Program-made: the position numbers and the translations under genes
Part shown: piece by piece, positions 3,635 to 36,163 of the stretch
Layout: every line of letters begins with the position of its first letter
Position numbering within the stretch: the first letter of the stretch is position 1
NCBI RefSeq assembly: GCF_003057875.1
Contig: NZ_PYXZ01000006.1
Location: 124,001-188,000 of the forward strand
Direction: 5' to 3'
Length of the DNA stretch: 64,000 bases
DNA from: Nocardioides currus
GTDB taxonomy: Bacteria; Actinomycetota; Actinomycetes; Propionibacteriales; Nocardioidaceae
Notes under the pieces: generated by a model
The model's input: the letters and a program-made list of their open reading frames with translations, nothing else
The model's database searches: none
Told to the model about the DNA's origin: nothing

Positions 3635-5521
3635 GTGACTGAAACTCCTGACGCTCCCACCGCTGCGCCCGCCACGAAGCGCGCCAAGTCGGGTGGGGGA
3701 CTCAGCTCCATGCTCCTCGCCGACCTGAAGTCGATGGCGAGCGGGCTGGGCGTCCCCGGCGCCGGCTCGATGAAGAAGGCCCAGCTGGTCGATGCCATCA
3801 AGGCCGTCCAGTCCGGCGGGTCGAAGCCGGCCGACAAGCCGGCCGAGAAGCGTGCCGACAAGCCGGCTGAGAGGGCCGACAAGCCGGCCGAGAAGCCGGC
3901 CGAGAAGCCTGCCGGGAACACCGAGAGGGCCGAGCCCGCCGCGGACGCGCCGAGCACGCCCACCGTCCAGGTGACCACCCGCCAGCGCACCCGCAATCGC
4001 CAGCCGGAGAAGCAGGGCGGCCAGCAGGCCGAGAAGAAGCAGGACGCGCAGAAGCAGGCCGAGAAGCCCTCCTACAAGCCGTCGGACCGGCCCGCCGAGA
4101 AGCAGGCCGAGCAGAAGCAGGTCGAGCAGAAGCAGGCCGACCAGAAGCAGGCCGACCAGAAGCAGGACGAGAAGCCCGCCGAGCGGCAGGGCGGCCAGCG
4201 CCAGCAGGACCGCCAGCCGAACCAGAACCAGAACCAGCAGGGTCAGCAGGGTCCGCACCAGAACGAGGACACCGACGAGGACGGCGAGGGCGGCAGCCGC
4301 CGCAACCGCCGCCGCCGAGGTCGCGACCGCGACCGGCAGGCCAACCGTGCCCCGGGTGGTCGCAACGAGCCCGACACGACGGTGCTCGAGGACGACGTCC
4401 TCGTGCCGGCGGCTGGCATCCTCGACGTCCTGGACAACTACGCCTTCGTGCGGACCTCGGGCTACCTCCCGGGCACCGACGACGTCTACCTGTCGCTGTC
4501 GATGGTGCGTCGCTTCGGCCTGCGCCGCGGCGACGCCGTGGTCGGCCAGGTGCGCCAGCCCCGCGAGGGCGAGCGCAAGGAGAAGTTCAACCCGATGGTG
4601 CGCATCGACAGCGTCAACGGCGCCGACCCGGAGGCCGCCCGCGAGCGCACCGAGTTCGAGTCGTTCACGCCCGTGCACCCCACCGAGCGCCTGCGCCTCG
4701 AGACCGACGGCGCCAACCTGATCGGGCGGGTCATCGACATCGCCGCGCCGATCGGCAAGGGCCAGCGTGGCCTCGTCGTTGCGCCGCCGAAGACCGGTCG
4801 GACCACGCTCCTCCAGTCGGTCGCGCAGTCGATCTCCAAGAACAACCCCGAGGTCCACCTGATGGTGGTGCTCCTCGACGCCCGCCCCGAGGAGGTCACC
4901 GACTTCCAGCGCGCCGTGAAGGGCGAGGTCATCGCCTCGACCTTCGACCGGGCCGCCAGCGACCACACGATGCTCGCCGAGCTCGCGATCGAGCGCGCCA
5001 AGCGACTCGTCGAGCTCGGCCACGACGTGACGGTGCTGCTCGACTCGGTGACGAGCCTGGCCCGGGCCTACAACGTCTCCGCGCCCGCGACCGGCCGCAC
5101 GCTCGCCGGCGGCGTCGACGCCGGTGCCGTGCACCCGCCCAAGCAGCTCTTCGGCGCGGCCCGCAACGTCGAGGGCGGCGGCTCGCTGACCGTCCTCGCG
5201 ACGGTCGTCGTCGAGACCGGCTCGGCCACCGACGAGGTGATCTACGAGGAGCTCGGCGGCACCGCCAACATGGAGCTGCGGCTGCGTCGCGAGCTGGCCG
5301 AGGGCCTCACCTACCCCGCCGTCGACTTCGTGGCGTCGGGCACGCGCCACGAGGCGCTGCTCTCCAGCGACCAGGAGGCGGGGATCGTCGCGTCGCTGCG
5401 GCGCCGGATGTCCGCGGACCCGATCGAGTCCGTCGCGCCGGTGCTCGAGCAGATCCGGGGCGCGCAGAACAACATCGCGTTCCTCACCCACCTGCAGCCC
5501 GGCTCCGGCCGGGGCAAGTAG
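3635..5521 (+). CDS. rho: Transcription termination factor Rho, active-site variant
   Basis: Position between thrB and rpmE-prfA is the canonical actinobacterial rho locus. The 628-residue protein has a Rho_N helix-extension-helix (about 25-63), then a low-complexity Lys/Glu/Gln/Pro-rich insert with KPAEK-type repeats (about 64-245). The RNA-binding cold-shock-like domain follows (VLDNYAFVRTSGYLPG), then the RecA-like ATPase. The core aligns without gaps to E. coli residues 184-366 at an offset of 205, yet key residues differ. The Walker-A lysine is R389 (PPKTGRTT), the catalytic glutamate is A416 (DARPEEV), the arginine after Walker B is S474 (DSVTSLARAYN), and K336 is G541. D470, R417 and the arginine finger R571 are kept. 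The family call is sure; normal ATPase activity is in doubt. GTG start; no strong ribosome site is evident. Confidence 0.93.
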   Translation: MTETPDAPTAAPATKRAKSGGGLSSMLLADLKSMASGLGVPGAGSMKKAQLVDAIKAVQSGGSKPADKPAEKRADKPAERADKPAEKPAEKPAGNTERAEPAADAPSTPTVQVTTRQRTRNRQPEKQGGQQAEKKQDAQKQAEKPSYKPSDRPAEKQAEQKQVEQKQADQKQADQKQDEKPAERQGGQRQQDRQPNQNQNQQGQQGPHQNEDTDEDGEGGSRRNRRRRGRDRDRQANRAPGGRNEPDTTVLEDDVLVPAAGILDVLDNYAFVRTSGYLPGTDDVYLSLSMVRRFGLRRGDAVVGQVRQPREGERKEKFNPMVRIDSVNGADPEAARERTEFESFTPVHPTERLRLETDGANLIGRVIDIAAPIGKGQRGLVVAPPKTGRTTLLQSVAQSISKNNPEVHLMVVLLDARPEEVTDFQRAVKGEVIASTFDRAASDHTMLAELAIERAKRLVELGHDVTVLLDSVTSLARAYNVSAPATGRTLAGGVDAGAVHPPKQLFGAARNVEGGGSLTVLATVVVETGSATDEVIYEELGGTANMELRLRRELAEGLTYPAVDFVASGTRHEALLSSDQEAGIVASLRRRMSADPIESVAPVLEQIRGAQNNIAFLTHLQPGSGRGK

Positions 5522-27400: not shown

Positions 27401-27901
27401 CACGACCATCAGCGCCAGCCCCAGCACGAGCCCGACGACTGCGCCCGCCAGCGGGGCCGACTCGGCGTCCGACGCCGCATCGGCCAGGGCCGAGACGGCG
27501 AACGAGACGAGCATCGCCAGGAACAGCAGGCCGACCCGCAGCGCCATCTCGCGGCCGAAGATCGCGAAGAACGACTCCGTGCCCCCGCGCCGGTCGAGCG
27601 GCAGCGCGTCGACGACCGCACCCCGGTTGATCGGGCCGTAGATGTGCGGGTAGGTGTCGTCGCCGACCGGCTCGACCCGCACCTCCGACTCGAGCCGGTC
27701 GGGATCGATGACCAGCAGCACCAGCGGCTCGCCGGCGTCGCGGTAGTAGCGGGAGAAGACGCCCTCCACCTGCTCGCGCCGCGAGGCGTGGATGAAGCCC
27801 TCGTCCTGGAGGCTCCGCCCGGCCGTGGACGTCGTGTAGGTGCCGGTGCGACGGAGCTCGAGCCACTCGGCCCGCGTCGCGATGTGGAAGATGCGCTCCA
27901 C
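27380..27901 (-). CDS. DUF952 domain protein with two C-terminal membrane helices
   Basis: Residues 1-110 match DUF952: HIATRAEWLELRRTGTYT at the start, DEGFIHASRREQVEGV and DTYPHIYGPINRGAVV. The domain is a putative enzyme or binding fold of unknown function. Two hydrophobic segments follow (about 128-145 and 150-168), which are not part of the basic domain. The GTG start shares its G with the nucS stop (TAGTG), so the two genes are coupled. The C-terminus VLRRRS lies in a tandem repeat. Confidence 0.82.
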   Translation of the reverse strand: MERIFHIATRAEWLELRRTGTYTTSTAGRSLQDEGFIHASRREQVEGVFSRYYRDAGEPLVLLVIDPDRLESEVRVEPVGDDTYPHIYGPINRGAVVDALPLDRRGGTESFFAIFGREMALRVGLLFLAMLVSFAVSALADAASDAESAPLAGAVVGLVLGLALMVVVLRRRS

Positions 27902-28587
27902 TAGAAGAGGCGGCTCTCGGTGTCGTCCATGCCACGCAGCGCGTCGTAGTCCACCAGGGCGCAGGCGATGCCCCGGTCGGTGGCGAGCACGCGGGCCTGC
28001 GGCTTGATCTCCTGGGCGGCGAAGATGCCGCGGACCGGACCCTTGGCGTTGAGCAGGGGATCGCGGTTGAGGAGCTCGAGGTAGCGCGTGAGCTGCTCGA
28101 CGCCGTCGATCTCGCCGCGTCGCTTGATCTCGACCGCCACGCTCAGGCCGGCCTCGTCGCGGCACATCAGGTCGACCGGACCGATCGCGGTGGGGAACTC
28201 GCGGCGCACGAGCGTCAGCCCGTCGGCCAGGCTGGCGGGGTGCTCCGCGAGCAGCTTCTGGAGGTGCTTCTCGACGCCGTCCTTCTGCAGGCCGGGGTCG
28301 ACGCCGAGGTCGTGGCTGGAGTCGGCGTGGATCTCCTCGATCAGGATGCGCAGCGTGTCGTCGGTCTTGGCCGCCGTCACCGTCCACTCGACCTGCCCGT
28401 CCTCGGTCGCGCCCTCGCGGAAGGTCGCCGGGGGCGACATCCAGTTGAGCGGCTTGTAGGAGCCCCCGTCGGAGTGCACGAGCACCGACCCGTCGGCCTT
28501 GATCATCAGCACCCGCGTCGCCATCGGCAGGTGGGCGGTCAGCCGCCCCGCGTAGTCGACCTGGCAGCGCGCAACGACGATCCTCAC
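27901..28587 (-). CDS. nucS: Mismatch-specific endonuclease NucS/EndoMS
   Basis: Cuts both strands at certain mismatches and supplies the non-canonical mismatch repair of actinobacteria, which lack MutS/MutL. The 228-residue protein has an N-terminal dimerisation and DNA-binding domain (1-115) and a RecB-like nuclease domain with D139 (IGPVDL), E153-I-K155 ([10 protein letters not shown]) and Q165. The C-terminal ESRLF is the beta-clamp-binding motif. GTG start; TAGATT lies 8 nt upstream. Coupled to the downstream DUF952 gene. Confidence 0.96.
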
Positions 28588-28643: not shown

Positions 28644-28667
28644 CCGCGAGTGCCACACTCAGGCCCC

Positions 28668-30473
28668 ATGACGGATGCCGCAGCTGAGCGAACCTCTCGT
28701 ACCTTCACCACCATCGGGGTGATCGGCCTCGGCACCATGGGTGCGGGCATCGCCGAGGTGTTCGCCCGCAACGGCTTCACCGTCGTCGGGGTCGAGGTGA
28801 GCGACGAGGCCGTCGAGCGCGGTCGCGGTCACCTCACGCACTCGACCGGGCGTGCCGTCGCCCGCGGCAAGATGTCGGAGGCGGACCAGGCCGAGATCCT
28901 CGGTCGCATCAGCTTCGCCACCGACCTCGCCGCGCTGGCCCAGGCCGACTTCGTGGTCGAGGCGGTCGTGGAGTCCCTCGAGGTCAAGAAGGACATCTTC
29001 CGGCGGCTCGACGACATCGTGCGGTCCGACGCGATCCTGGCCACCAACACCTCGTCGCTGCCCGTCACCGAGATCTCCACGGCCAACTCCCGCCCGGGCC
29101 GGGTCGTCGGCGTCCACTTCTTCAACCCCGCTCCGGTGCAGAACCTCGTCGAGATCGTGCGCACCGTCGTCACCGAGCCGGGCGTGCTCGCCGACGTCGA
29201 GGGGCTGGTCGGCACGCTGGGCAAGAACCCGGTCGTGTGCGGCGACAAGGCGGGCTTCATCGCCAACACCCTGCTCTTCGGCTACCTCAACCACGCCGCC
29301 TCGATGCTCGAGACGAAGTACGCCACCCGCGAGGACATCGACGCCGCGATGCGGTTCGGCTGCGGCTACCCGATGGGCCCGCTGGCGCTGCTGGACCTGA
29401 TCGGGCTCGACACGGCGTACGAGATCCTCGACACGATGTACAAGCAGGGTCGCGACCGGCTGCACGCACCGGTGCCGATCCTCAAGCAGATGGTCACCGC
29501 CGGCCTGCTGGGCCGCAAGAGCGGTCGGGGCTTCTACACCTACGACGGGGTCGACAGCTCCGCCGTCGTCGCCGACGCCCACACCCCGTCGGCCGACTCG
29601 GTGCCGCAGCTGCGCCGACCGGTGCGGACCGTCGGTGTCGTCGGCACCGGCACCATGGCCGCCGGCATCGTCGAGGTCTTCGCCAAGAGCGGCCTCGACG
29701 TGGTGTACGTCGGTCGCTCGGCCGACAAGGTCGAGGGCGTGCGCGCCACCATCGAGAAGTCGCTCGACAAGGCCATCCAGCGCGGCAAGCTCGAGGAGGC
29801 CACGAAGGCCGAGGTGCTCGGGCGGCTCAGCGGCACCACGTCGCTCGACGACCTCGGGCAGGTCGACCTCGTCGTCGAGGCGATCGCCGAGGACCTGCGG
29901 ATCAAGACGACGCTCTTCGAGAACCTCGACGAGATCTGCAAGCCCGGCGCGATCCTGGCGACCACCACGTCCTCGCTGCCCGTCATCGCCCTGGCGAAGG
30001 TGACCACCCGTCCGCAGGACGTCATCGGCGTGCACTTCTTCAACCCCGCGCCGATCATGAAGCTGGTCGAGGTCGTGTCGACGGTGGCGACCGCCGAGGA
30101 CGTCGCGGAGACCGTGCGCGCGCTGTGCGACCAGGTCGGCAAGGTCGCGGTCTCCTGCGGGGACCGGGCCGGCTTCATCGTCAACGCGCTGCTGTTCCCC
30201 TATCTCAACGACGCGGTGAAGATGCTCGAGGCGCACTACGCGACGGCCGACGACATCGACACGGCGATGAAGCAGGGCTGCGCCCTGCCGATGGGACCGT
30301 TCGAGCTGCTCGACGTGGTCGGCAACGACGTGTCCCTGGCCATCCAGCGCGAGCTCTACCTCGAGTTCCGCGAGCCGGGGTTCGCGCCGGCCCCGCTGCT
30401 CGAGCACCTCGTCACGGCCGGCTACCTCGGTCGCAAGACGCAGCGCGGGTTCCGCGACCACAGCCAGCGCTGA
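28668..30473 (+). CDS. 3-hydroxyacyl-CoA dehydrogenase, two complete copies in one protein
   Basis: NAD(P)-dependent oxidoreductase acting between acetoacetyl-CoA and 3-hydroxybutyryl-CoA or longer chains. The 601-residue protein holds two full HCDH units (about 10-300 and 317-600). Each has a Rossmann motif (GVIGLGTMGAGI; GVVGTGTMAAGI), the catalytic-His motif VHFFNPAP, and a C-terminal helical domain. Copy 1 has the usual TNTSSLPVT; copy 2 has TTTSSLPVI, losing the Asn but keeping the Ser. Both look active. No hydratase or thiolase domain is fused. I chose ATG 28668 over GTG 28650. It could supply the 3-hydroxybutyryl-CoA step of the ethylmalonyl-CoA route or beta-oxidation. Confidence 0.9.
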   Translation: MTDAAAERTSRTFTTIGVIGLGTMGAGIAEVFARNGFTVVGVEVSDEAVERGRGHLTHSTGRAVARGKMSEADQAEILGRISFATDLAALAQADFVVEAVVESLEVKKDIFRRLDDIVRSDAILATNTSSLPVTEISTANSRPGRVVGVHFFNPAPVQNLVEIVRTVVTEPGVLADVEGLVGTLGKNPVVCGDKAGFIANTLLFGYLNHAASMLETKYATREDIDAAMRFGCGYPMGPLALLDLIGLDTAYEILDTMYKQGRDRLHAPVPILKQMVTAGLLGRKSGRGFYTYDGVDSSAVVADAHTPSADSVPQLRRPVRTVGVVGTGTMAAGIVEVFAKSGLDVVYVGRSADKVEGVRATIEKSLDKAIQRGKLEEATKAEVLGRLSGTTSLDDLGQVDLVVEAIAEDLRIKTTLFENLDEICKPGAILATTTSSLPVIALAKVTTRPQDVIGVHFFNPAPIMKLVEVVSTVATAEDVAETVRALCDQVGKVAVSCGDRAGFIVNALLFPYLNDAVKMLEAHYATADDIDTAMKQGCALPMGPFELLDVVGNDVSLAIQRELYLEFREPGFAPAPLLEHLVTAGYLGRKTQRGFRDHSQR

Positions 30474-30507
30474 GGGAGACGCCGCTCAGCGAGCCCCGCC
30501 ACCCGGG

Positions 30508-30577
30508 GGTAACGCCAACTCACATGCACTCCCGCCACCACCGGTGATGGCGGAAGTGCTCAGATCCTGGCGTTACC
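30508..30577. repeat. 70-nt nested inverted repeat
   Basis: Outer arms GGTAACGCCA (30508-30517) and TGGCGTTACC (30568-30577) are exact complements. Inside lies a second near-perfect hairpin: CACT...CCGCCA and CACC on the left pair with GGTG, TGGCGG and AGTG on the right. The element is 34 bp after the dehydrogenase stop and ends 10 bp before the 22-bp repeats. It may be a bidirectional terminator or a short dispersed structured repeat. Confidence 0.7.
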
Positions 30578-30586
30578 GGAGGGAGG

Positions 30587-30696
30587 GCACTCGGTTCGCG
30601 CCGACTCGGCACTCGGTTCGCGCCGACTCGGCACTCGGTTCGCGCCGACTCGGCACTCGGTTCGCGCCGACTCGGCACTCGGTTCGCGCCGACTCG
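30587..30696. repeat. Minisatellite: five perfect 22-bp tandem copies
   Basis: Units start at 30587, 30609, 30631, 30653 and 30675 and are identical, with no spacers. Each unit begins GCACTCGGTTCGCG and ends CCGACTCG; each junction forms the small palindrome GCCGACTCGGC. The array ends two bases before the stop codon of the minus-strand LuxR-type gene. Perfect identity indicates recent expansion. It is not a CRISPR array because nothing separates the units. Confidence 0.95.
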
Positions 30697-30698
30697 GC

Positions 30699-33122
30699 TC
30701 AGCGCGCGTCGACGACGAGGGCGGCGAGCTTCGCGCGCGTGGTGATGTCGAGCTTGCGGTAGATGTGCGTGAGGTGGGCGTCGACCGTGCGCGGCGAGAT
30801 GAACAGCTCGGCGGCGATCTGGCGGCTGGTGAGTCCCTGGGCCACCCGGTCGGCGACCTGGCGCTCGGCGTTGCTCAGCCGGCCGAGGACGCTGCCGGTG
30901 TCGGGGCTGGTGACGCCCGAGAAGAGGCCGACCACGGCTTCGACGCCGGCGCGGGTGAACTCGTCGTCCACGACCCACTCGCCCGGGAACGACCGGCCCA
31001 CGACGATCGGCCGGTCGGCGGCGTACCCCCACGCCGCCGCCTGACGGGGAGCCCGGAGCGCGGCGCTCGCGGCGGCCAGCGCGCGGGCGTCGCGCAGGTC
31101 GCCGTGCTGCCCGATCCAGGCGAGGCCGTCGAGCGCGTCGGCGACCCGGAGTGGCATCGGCATCTCGCTGGCCCGGTCGAGGGCGGCCAGGAACGTGGTG
31201 GTCGCCTGCGCCCGGTCGCCGCCCGCGAGCAGGGCGCGGGCGAGCAGGAGGCGCCCCTCGACCGCGTCGCGGCCCAGGCCGGTGCTGTCGGCGAGGACGA
31301 CCACGTCGGCCGCCAGGCCGGCGGCGCGCTGCTGGTCGCCGTCGCGCAGGAGGTCACGGGCGTCCTGGGCCAGCACCGGGATCCGGACCGCCCAGGGCAG
31401 GCTGTCGCGATCCAGCGGCGCCGGGGTGAAGCCGGGGTCGAGGTGGCGCAGCAGCGTCTCGGCGAGCAGCGCCACCCGGTCCTCGGCGAGGGCGCGGGCG
31501 TCGTTGACCACGGCGCGCGCAGCGGAGGCGGCCTCGGTGGGCCGCCCCTGCTCGAGGGCGATCCTGGCCAGCAGGGTCCGCGCCGACAACGAGATCCATC
31601 TCTCGTCCTTGTGGTCGCGCGCGGCGAGCAGCTGGCCCAGGGTCGCGGCGGCGTCGCGGAAGGCACCGCGCGAGACCTGGACGTCGGCCAGCGTGCGGGC
31701 GGCCTGCCGGGTGATCTCGCTCGCCGTGCCCAGCTCGATGGCTCGTCGCGCGTCCACCTCCGACTGCACGAGCGCACCCGCGTCGAGGTGCATCTCGGCC
31801 CGGATCGAGGCGTTCTTGGCGAGCTCCTCGTCGGGGTCGGGCGAGCTGAGCGCGTGCTCGTCGGCGCGGTCGAGCAGCCACTGGCCCTCGTAGGTCCCGC
31901 GCACCTCGGAGGCGGCGATCCCGGCGCGCCGGGCGACCTGGGCGCCGATCTCCGGCGGGCCGTCGCCGCTGACGAGGGTGGCCTCGAGGATCTCCACCGC
32001 GTCGCGCGCGCGCATCGAGGTGTAGAGCGAGGAGAAGACGCGGTTGGCCAGGGCGTAGCCGAGGCCGCGGGTGCCGGCGTCGGCGCAGGCCGCGGCGATC
32101 GCGCTCTTCATCACCGCGAGGTCGCCGAGCCAGGCCTCGTCAGCCGCACCGGTGTTGAAGTCGGCGGGGGCGACGCGGTCGGCCCAGGTGAGCAGCGCCT
32201 GCCGGGTGAGGTCGCGGTCGTCGGTGGAGGCGGTGAGGAAGTGGCCGTGCCGGCGGATCGGGCTGAGCATGTCGAAGCGGCCGTCGGGCAGGAGCTCCAG
32301 CAGGCTGCGGCGTACGAGACCGCCGGCGATCGCGGCGGCCTCGTCGCGGCTCACGCCGGTGATCTCGGCGAGCACGTCGATCGAGACCGGCGACGTCATC
32401 TGCGACATGCGGCGGAAGCAGCGCTGCTGGTCGGCGTCGAGCAGCTCGTAGGAGCCGTGGACCGCCTCCGAGAGCGAGGCCGTCGGCACCACGTTGGTGA
32501 CGCCGACGAGCGCGATCTGGACGGCGATCTGCTCGATGAGGAGCGGGAGCCCGCCGGTGGCGTTGAGCAGGCGGCGTACGTCGCTCGCGTGGGCCTGGAG
32601 GTCGACCGGGTGTCCGCCGGCGGCCTCCACGCGGTGCAGGAACAGCTCGACGGCCGGACCGGCGAGGGGCTCGTGGTCGCGCGGGACGATGAAGGGCGCG
32701 ACGCGGACGACGCGCTCGGCCGGCTGCCCGGCCATGGTCAGCGAGGTCACCGCCAGCCGGGCCTCGCTGGTCGCCGCCATCAGCTGCTGGAAGGTGGGCC
32801 CGAGCGCGGACGGGTCGAGGTCGAGGCCGTCGACGACCAACAGCGTGTCGGTGCCGTCCATCGCGCGGCACAGCGCGCCCTCCGCGGAGTCGCCGGGCGT
32901 CGGAGGCACGTCGAGCGCGTCGAGGCAGGCCGAGAGGACGTCCTCGGCGTCCTGCAGCCCGCGCGCATTGACCCAGGTGCTCTCGCCGTCGGGCGCCGCG
33001 TGCCGGGCGAGCAGCGTCTTCCCACTGCCGGGAGGGCCGACGATGCTGACCCAGCGCGACGAGGCCAGCGCCGTGGCGAGGCGGGCCTGGGTCTGCTCGC
33101 GACCGAGACAAGGGGTGAGCAC
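30699..33122 (-). CDS. Large ATPase/LuxR-type transcriptional regulator
   Basis: The 807-residue protein has an N-terminal AAA/STAND ATPase (Walker A IVGPPGSGKTLLARH, about 28-42; Walker B-like TLLVVDGLDLD), a long alpha-helical repeat region likely made of TPR-like units (about 350-700), and a C-terminal LuxR helix-turn-helix (LSNAERQVADRVAQGLTSRQIAAELFISPRTVDAHL). This is the LAL or MalT-like layout, somewhat shorter than the usual 900. The inducing ligand is unknown. No operon partner lies on its strand. GTG start; a GGTAG/CTACC palindrome is 45 bp upstream. Confidence 0.9.
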   Translation of the reverse strand: MLTPCLGREQTQARLATALASSRWVSIVGPPGSGKTLLARHAAPDGESTWVNARGLQDAEDVLSACLDALDVPPTPGDSAEGALCRAMDGTDTLLVVDGLDLDPSALGPTFQQLMAATSEARLAVTSLTMAGQPAERVVRVAPFIVPRDHEPLAGPAVELFLHRVEAAGGHPVDLQAHASDVRRLLNATGGLPLLIEQIAVQIALVGVTNVVPTASLSEAVHGSYELLDADQQRCFRRMSQMTSPVSIDVLAEITGVSRDEAAAIAGGLVRRSLLELLPDGRFDMLSPIRRHGHFLTASTDDRDLTRQALLTWADRVAPADFNTGAADEAWLGDLAVMKSAIAAACADAGTRGLGYALANRVFSSLYTSMRARDAVEILEATLVSGDGPPEIGAQVARRAGIAASEVRGTYEGQWLLDRADEHALSSPDPDEELAKNASIRAEMHLDAGALVQSEVDARRAIELGTASEITRQAARTLADVQVSRGAFRDAAATLGQLLAARDHKDERWISLSARTLLARIALEQGRPTEAASAARAVVNDARALAEDRVALLAETLLRHLDPGFTPAPLDRDSLPWAVRIPVLAQDARDLLRDGDQQRAAGLAADVVVLADSTGLGRDAVEGRLLLARALLAGGDRAQATTTFLAALDRASEMPMPLRVADALDGLAWIGQHGDLRDARALAAASAALRAPRQAAAWGYAADRPIVVGRSFPGEWVVDDEFTRAGVEAVVGLFSGVTSPDTGSVLGRLSNAERQVADRVAQGLTSRQIAAELFISPRTVDAHLTHIYRKLDITTRAKLAALVVDAR

Positions 33123-35398: not shown

Positions 35399-36163
35399 AT
35401 GACGGGAATGGTGCTGCTGCTCGTGCTCCTCGGCGGTCTCGTCGCGGTGGCGGTGCTGGCAGGCCAGAGCGCGAAGAACCGTCAGCTGGCCAAGGCCGAG
35501 GCCGAGCTCGAGCCGGTGAAGAAGCTGGCCGAGGAGGACGTCACCGCGCTCGGCGTCGAGCTCCAGGAGCTCGACATCGACATGGCCGGCAAGGACCTCG
35601 GCGCCGGTGAGAACGCCGACTACCAGCGGGCGCTCGACGCCTACGAGTCGTCCAAGTCCGCGGTCACCCGGATGAGCAAGCCCGACGACATCCGCCACGT
35701 CACCGAGATCCTCGAGGACGGGCGCTACGCGATGGCCTGCGTGCGGGCGCGCGTCGACGGGCTGCCGCTGCCGACCCGCCGTCCGCCGTGCTTCTTCGAC
35801 CCGCGCCACGGCATGTCCGTGGCCGACGTGCCCTACACCCCGCCGGGCGGCACGCAGCGCGACGTCCCGGCCTGCCAGCTCGACGCCGAGCGCGTCCGGG
35901 CCGGCGCCGAGCCCGACATCCGCAAGGTCATGGTCGGCTCGCGACGGGTGCCCTACTGGCAGGGCGGGCGCGCCTACCAGCCCTACGCCCAGGGCTACTT
36001 CGGCGGCTTCGGCCCGATGGACTGGATGTTCATGGGCATGCTCTTCAGCGGCGGCTTCGACGGCCTCGGCGAGGGCATCGGCGCGATCGGCGAGGGCATC
36101 GGCGACATGTTCGGCGGCATCGGCGACGGCATCGGCGACATGTTCGACGGGTTCGACTTCTAG
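35399..36163 (+). CDS. Membrane-anchored actinobacterial protein with Gly-rich repeat tail
   Basis: The 254-residue protein has an N-terminal membrane helix (about 3-22) and a charged, probably coiled segment (about 26-100). A conserved central part follows with RRPPCFFDPRHG, PPGGTQRDVPAC (two cysteines) and RRVPYWQGGRAY. The C-terminal tail of about 30 residues is built of GEGIG/GDMF-type repeats. The central motif recurs in other actinobacterial proteins of unknown function (recollection). The start is set by TACGCT 6 nt upstream (leaderless). Confidence 0.75.
   Translation: MTGMVLLLVLLGGLVAVAVLAGQSAKNRQLAKAEAELEPVKKLAEEDVTALGVELQELDIDMAGKDLGAGENADYQRALDAYESSKSAVTRMSKPDDIRHVTEILEDGRYAMACVRARVDGLPLPTRRPPCFFDPRHGMSVADVPYTPPGGTQRDVPACQLDAERVRAGAEPDIRKVMVGSRRVPYWQGGRAYQPYAQGYFGGFGPMDWMFMGMLFSGGFDGLGEGIGAIGEGIGDMFGGIGDGIGDMFDGFDF

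Follow-up and report, generated by a model that had tools for sequence, protein, structure and literature searches.

Hairpin and array at the window locus

The window (the whole stretch of DNA analyzed, 64,000 nucleotides) contains, between the ends of two convergent genes, a nested hairpin and an array of 22-bp units. The features of this locus are the following:

28650-30473, + strand: convergent neighbor gene, 607 aa, with two 3HCDH_N and two 3HCDH stretches
30508-30577, no strand given: nested 70-nt hairpin, that is, a 68-nt GTAACGCCA...TGGCGTTAC element plus one G-C pair
30509-30518/30567-30576: outer stem of the hairpin, its last pair mismatched in the window copy
30526-30540/30545-30559: inner stem of the hairpin
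30588-30697, - strand: array of five identical 22-bp units (gene-sense unit GCCGAGTCGGCGCGAACCGAGT), after the LuxR-type stop
Starts at 30600, 30622, 30644, 30666 and 30688, + strand: array core GCCGACTC
30699-30701, - strand: TGA stop of the LuxR-type gene, with one to two bases between it and the array
30699-33122, - strand: LuxR-type regulator gene, 807 aa, with a GerE domain at 749-801

According to its domain content, the product of 28650-30473 is a double 3-hydroxyacyl-CoA dehydrogenase. A NucS endonuclease gene (window 27901-28587, both NucS Pfam domains) lies beyond the dehydrogenase gene as seen from the hairpin. The hairpin begins 34 bp past the end of the dehydrogenase gene (30473), and its sequence runs GGTAACGCCA ... 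TGGCGTTACC (30508-30577). Ten bases separate it from the array, and the stops of the two convergent genes bracket both elements. The original prediction of a nested 70-nt hairpin accompanied by five identical 22-bp units was confirmed by folding and by TRF, and the coordinates agree with its further claims that the two lie within 10 bp of each other and that the array ends just before the LuxR-type stop.

TRF reported the array at 30586-30698 (period 22, 5.1 copies, 100% matches), with the top score among the 28 rows of the window. Other tandem repeats were reported at 3823-4171 and 36058-36150; most of these other periods are multiples of three (12, 15, 21, 24, 30, 33), and the repeats concerned are possibly coding. 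The region of the hairpin (30495-30590) folds at -50.2 kcal/mol on the + strand and -57.5 kcal/mol on the - strand (z -4.6 and -5.0), and none of 200 shuffles folded as well. The array also folds strongly on the LuxR strand (z -6.8; two units alone, z -4.2), because the core of the unit is a near-palindrome (GCCGA-C-TCGGC) that allows one direct unit to pair with the next. A protein-coding array was rejected, because a period of 22 is not divisible by three and the ORFs that overlap the array are mechanical. The whole 22-bp window unit repeats identically, without the unique spacers of a CRISPR. A search of Rfam over 30300-30900 gave a single match, at 19.7 bits vs a gathering score of 83 bits, which was taken as chance.

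Two dispersed families in the host genome

When the genome of the host, a soil bacterium, was searched (4.53 Mb) with the 241-bp region as DNA query, the 57 matches fell into two sets, namely 22-bp arrays at 12 other places and copies of the hairpin elsewhere. No 22-bp pair of the array core was found near any of the other 15 hairpin copies (L020-L033). The array and the hairpin are thus members of two separate families, unrelated in sequence.

Including that of the window, 17 oriented arrays were delimited, with 2-30 units each and 105 units in total. An exact core CGCCGACTCG is present in 95 of the 105 units, and 83 of 84 close spacings are of 22 bp. The genome has 132 occurrences of the core 11-mer CGCCGACTCGG, vs 8 of the reversed pattern. 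Over the 105 units, the difference between units of the same array averages 2.7 of 22 positions (mean of 17 arrays; median 2.1), compared with 6.1 of 22 between array consensuses (array L019a being out of register). Some arrays do not follow this rule: the internal mix of L016 is as large as the differences between arrays, and the internal differences of the two-unit arrays L013a and L014b exceed the between-array level. Identical 22-mers are common to three pairs of arrays at different places (L009a/L017, L010/L011a, L010/L019b), which suggests copying between loci. The expansion originally read from the identical units of the window is consistent with the 2-30 copies seen elsewhere, yet wholly identical units are found in only 2 of the 17 arrays, those of the window and of L012.

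The longest array (30 units) lies at L010:3963-4609, where the TGA stop of the preceding gene, as placed by our own gene call, falls inside the first unit. Presence and absence were compared at two places, this one and the window locus. The LuxR-type protein of the window has a match in 14 of 59 Nocardioides genomes, the closest being in G005 (85% identity). The gap between the LuxR-type and dehydrogenase genes holds a 289-codon ORF in G005 and a 1023-bp ORF in G049, so that both relatives carry a gene where the host genome has the hairpin and the array (window 30474-30698). At the place of the 30-unit array, the G005 flanks are 85-86% identical to those of the host and lie 12 bp apart, vs 657 bp in the host genome, and G005 has no exact 22-bp pair anywhere. 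The direction of change at this place is not polarised, as the G049 flanks lie apart.

The hairpin family counts 16 copies, and the length from GTAACGCCA to TGGCGTTAC is exactly 68 nt in every one. Once aligned, 15 begin with GTAAC and one with CTCAC, and all 16 end with GTTAC. Locus L034 keeps the inner stem without the outer arms. Searched as an exact pattern in the 59 genus genomes, the 68-nt hairpin was found in the host genome only (1/59). Within the family, 95.3% of the cells are paired (92.6 in shuffles) and covariation reaches 0.080, vs 0.041 in shuffles, none of 500 being as high. This covariation comes mainly from one pair, A-U in 8 copies and C-G in 8, which provides 8 of the 10 double-change cells and is perhaps a single event; three pairs have double changes, which is unexceptional (156/500 shuffles). 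TTT follows the inner stem on 11 of 32 sides, compared with 5 of 2240 flank 10-mers and 6 of 772 10-mers from other intergenic gaps. The window copy departs from this, as neither side of its inner stem is followed by TTT. After the outer stem, no T tract was found in any of the 16 copies (0-2 T in 10 nt).

The array core across the genus

The direct pair GCCGACTC-N14-GCCGACTC is present in 12 of the 59 Nocardioides genomes (host included), with species-specific linkers; the reversed-pattern control gave one match in each of 2 genomes. A three-unit pattern searched over the genome collection returned 13 stretches, all from Nocardioides, in a search from which near relatives of the window were possibly left out. 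Facing pairs (GAGTCGGC-N-GCCGACTC) are more widespread: 38 of the 59 genomes have them, with a maximum of 80 in one genome (no more than 2 in the control), and 21 have none. Outside the genus, an order-wide sample of 97 genomes gave 0-3 facing pairs per genome, equal to the control. The core is kept across species while the linkers drift.

With free spacing, searched in 20 chosen genomes, G001 gave at least 143 matches, most of those listed being 31 bp apart; 84 of its 86 close spacings are of 31 bp. Its dialect before the core is GTCAGRACGA. Among the matches listed for G054, a second class at 31-32 bp stands beside the 22-bp pairs. All 40 G001 loci fetched, which were chosen for having direct repeats, show a facing pair 20 bp apart that forms a hairpin, with further arms at 31 bp, and at one of these loci ten arms, mostly identical, line up on one side. 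The inner stem of the 40 loci shows paired changes at centre positions 1 and 5 (p 0.0008 and <0.0002) and, uncorrected, at positions 2-4 outward (p 0.0065, 0.023 and 0.0105). The pair at centre position 5 would close a loop of 2 nt, which is impossible for RNA, so that DNA symmetry may share in the pairing there. No paired changes were found in the 31-bp outer arms and linkers of G001, the outer arms being conserved as plain sequence. TTT follows the inner stem on 30 of 80 sides, giving a T-rich tract on both strands, compared with 15 of 1760 flank 10-mers and 95 of 3472 10-mers from other intergenic gaps.

The loci of G054, G037, G035, G002, G008, G013 and G014 were chosen with the 22-bp pattern, and the strictness of the 22-bp period in these seven genomes is therefore partly selection. 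Two-unit arrays of G054, G037 and G035 showed no clear gain in folding over shuffles (z -1.0, -1.5 and +1.0). G054 has a 26-bp perfect palindrome of the array core with other outer arms. Around these palindromes, several G054 loci (L188-L199) show the outer arms CCTGTGGA...TCCACAGG. The actinobacterial DnaA box is TTGTCCACA, and the resemblance of these arms to it may be more than chance. At the G035 loci L041 and L063, right of position 1530 (gene sense), a second type of 22-bp repeat, built on CGACTCGAGCG or CGATTCGACC, lies beside the GAGTCGGC pair. The G002 loci L051 and L061 contain longer degenerate arrays with a period of about 22 and CGASTCGG and GGAA motifs, which by eye are apparently old and decayed.

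Gene ends and candidate explanations

The position of the elements was analyzed in 94 clusters from 9 genomes, with gene ends taken from a simple codon-position GC caller and not from annotation. This set takes 40 G001 loci from among the matches listed and one of three G013 places, and it omits the window itself, G018 (most matches, 187), G036, G043 and G009. The clusters lie in 44 convergent, 39 tandem, 6 divergent and 5 unclear contexts, compared with 26 convergent, 70 tandem and 40 divergent among 136 background gaps (convergent vs divergent, Fisher p 1e-7). For 73 of the 94 clusters, the distance to a stop-side gene end is at most 30 nt, and 18 are near a start-side end. For the 58 clusters with arms in one orientation, a co-oriented stop precedes the arms in 40 (45% expected from the background gaps, p 0.0003), and such a stop is missing from the expected side in the other 18. 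The convergent junction noted for the window is accordingly a recurrent setting of these elements (44/94 vs 26/136). Regarding the roles first proposed, a boundary, an attenuator or a mobile short repeat, the boundary and the mobile repeat are partly supported; the attenuator is not, since most elements come after a stop codon and just 6 of the 94 clusters occupy divergent gaps. The picture of a dispersed, mobile-like short repeat is reinforced by the 12 other array places, the 16 hairpins, the shared 22-mers and the 12-bp site in a relative. Compared between loci and species, the unit number was not constant, and second loci were present.

We consider it probable that the array and the hairpin belong to two REPIN-like families of palindromes at gene 3' ends, which most likely act as two-way terminators or 3'-end barriers. 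The GAGTCGGC family would be made of core arms, set as facing pairs (hairpin) and as direct repeats of fixed period, and the window array would be one such arm tandemly amplified after the LuxR-type stop. The 68-nt family would follow the same plan: its inner stem is paired, both strands carry T-rich tracts, and the outer arms are conserved. That two unrelated families share this plan best fits, as far as sequence can tell, hairpins that stop transcription from both directions or act as mRNA 3'-end barriers, be it between convergent genes or between tandem transcription units. Amplification of an arm would add structure 3' of the stop codon, because the near-palindromic core lets neighboring direct copies of the host fold together. 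Tandem copies would arise by slippage or unequal recombination, and the elements would spread by copying between loci.

The evidence on the U-tract of an intrinsic terminator is divided: T enrichment after the inner stem is seen at the level of the families, the window copy has no TTT, the 22-bp unit of the host has no T tract in its sequence, and a terminator scan of the region gave 0 sites. The mycobacterial polymerase reportedly needs a U-tract. Base pairing alone does not explain the outer arms, because they are kept as sequence without paired changes, and the conserved core and outer arms perhaps need something more, a recognizing protein or a copying mechanism. A more speculative extension, which we put forward tentatively and with less confidence than the two-way terminators or barriers, is a genus-wide REPIN-like family devoid of RAYT, with species dialects around a fixed GAGTCGGC core, to which arms would be added in steps of two or three helical turns. 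Its spread would be due to an enzyme yet to be found or to template switching at replication, and the core would imply a recognizing factor awaiting discovery.

A DNA-binding array, in which the core would be a protein site repeated at two or three helical turns so that proteins bind on one face and form a boundary or loop, appears unlikely. The very strict spacing (22 bp in the host, 31 bp in G001) agrees with it, as do the core kept over species while linkers drift, the outer arms conserved without paired changes, and the near-palindromic core, whose symmetry in G001 reaches the very centre of the palindrome. However, RNA hairpins are indicated by the paired changes of the inner stem and by the T tracts that flank it on either side, species sharing the core do not all share the period, and in the seven genomes chosen by pattern the strictness is partly selection.

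We regard as improbable that a MITE, or a RAYT-driven REP family, was moved by a resident transposase. The dispersed inverted repeats, their patchy occurrence and the absence of the array from one place in a relative agree with it, but Y1_Tnp (PF01797), the only domain covered by the transposase check, was found in none of the 59 genus genomes, while 5 of 14 control genomes were positive. The check for a resident insertion sequence covered the exact 10-mer GGTAACGCCA of the 68-nt family only, and 28 of its 28 occurrences in the genome are at hairpin places, leaving no resident element with these exact ends.

Neisseriaceae uptake sequences (DUS) come in dialects that share a core, and they form inverted pairs at the ends of genes. 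The Nocardioides elements resemble them in these respects, and the core could be conceived as a signal for uptake or recombination in a species-specific dialect; nevertheless, we judge such a watermark highly improbable. Uptake sequences are reported to be present in hundreds to thousands of copies (PMC2346458), whereas the Nocardioides copies number tens to a few hundred, most exact cores of the host sit in a few arrays, and facing pairs are absent from 21 of the 59 genus genomes. The 8-mer core of G001 is about twofold over the reversed control (34 vs 14 in 184 kb around elements), an excess that may be codon usage.

Finally, an ordinary local minisatellite, with slippage in a hairpin-prone 3' region and chance similarity elsewhere, fits the identical window units and the unit number that varies between loci, and slippage is the simplest source of tandem copies and the likely cause of copy number, but as a complete explanation it is refuted by the second loci, the same core and period recurring at 12 other places in the host genome and in 11 of 58 other genus genomes with a control near zero, and we give it hardly any credence.

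Comparison with known systems

Bidirectional intrinsic terminators have a GC-rich stem with a T tract on both strands and lie between convergent stops. The elements described here are similar in their GC-rich stem, their T enrichment on both strands and their location in the gap between convergent stops, and they differ by the conserved outer arms and core, the tandem arms and a window copy without a clear T tract. Canonical terminators are reportedly scarce in M. tuberculosis, another actinobacterium (PMC10937400).

A search of titles and abstract openings, with subscription papers and preprints outside its scope, found no published description of these families. The closest likeness is to REP, REPIN and BIME elements (PMC3733652, PMC3116915): short extragenic palindromes whose facing pairs fold into hairpins, located near gene 3' ends between convergent and co-directional genes, with species-specific sequences and occasional evenly spaced tandem arrays. 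The Nocardioides elements are likewise short dispersed palindromes, mostly outside genes and set as facing pairs. GTAG or CTAC was found in none of the 105 units of the host and in none of the 40 G001 elements within 12 nt of the inner palindrome. With no GTAG in the elements checked and no Y1_Tnp in the 59 genomes, these elements behave like REPINs but are not members of the RAYT-associated class.

Another class, the CGTC-tagged REPs, has no dedicated transposase known and consists mostly of head-to-head dimers with an unpaired tag (PMC3733652). G001 similarly has CGYC beside the core, although its CGYC is paired with GRCG of the other arm, whereas the tag is unpaired in that published text. 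No CCA tail of the CGTC-REP kind was noticed by eye, and the ends of the 16 hairpins bear no CGTC tag.

The REP paper places REP-like repeats mostly in Proteobacteria, and its main text does not contain the word "actinobacterium", which describes the Nocardioides host (PMC3733652). The usual explanation of REP spread is the RAYT transposase. A comparable RAYT-less system in Nocardioides, in which stems are paired, arms are added at fixed steps, species have their dialects and a close relative lacks one of the arrays, would make it possible to ask directly what copies such elements and what reads them, and an actinobacterial genus would gain defined candidates for two-way signals at gene ends.
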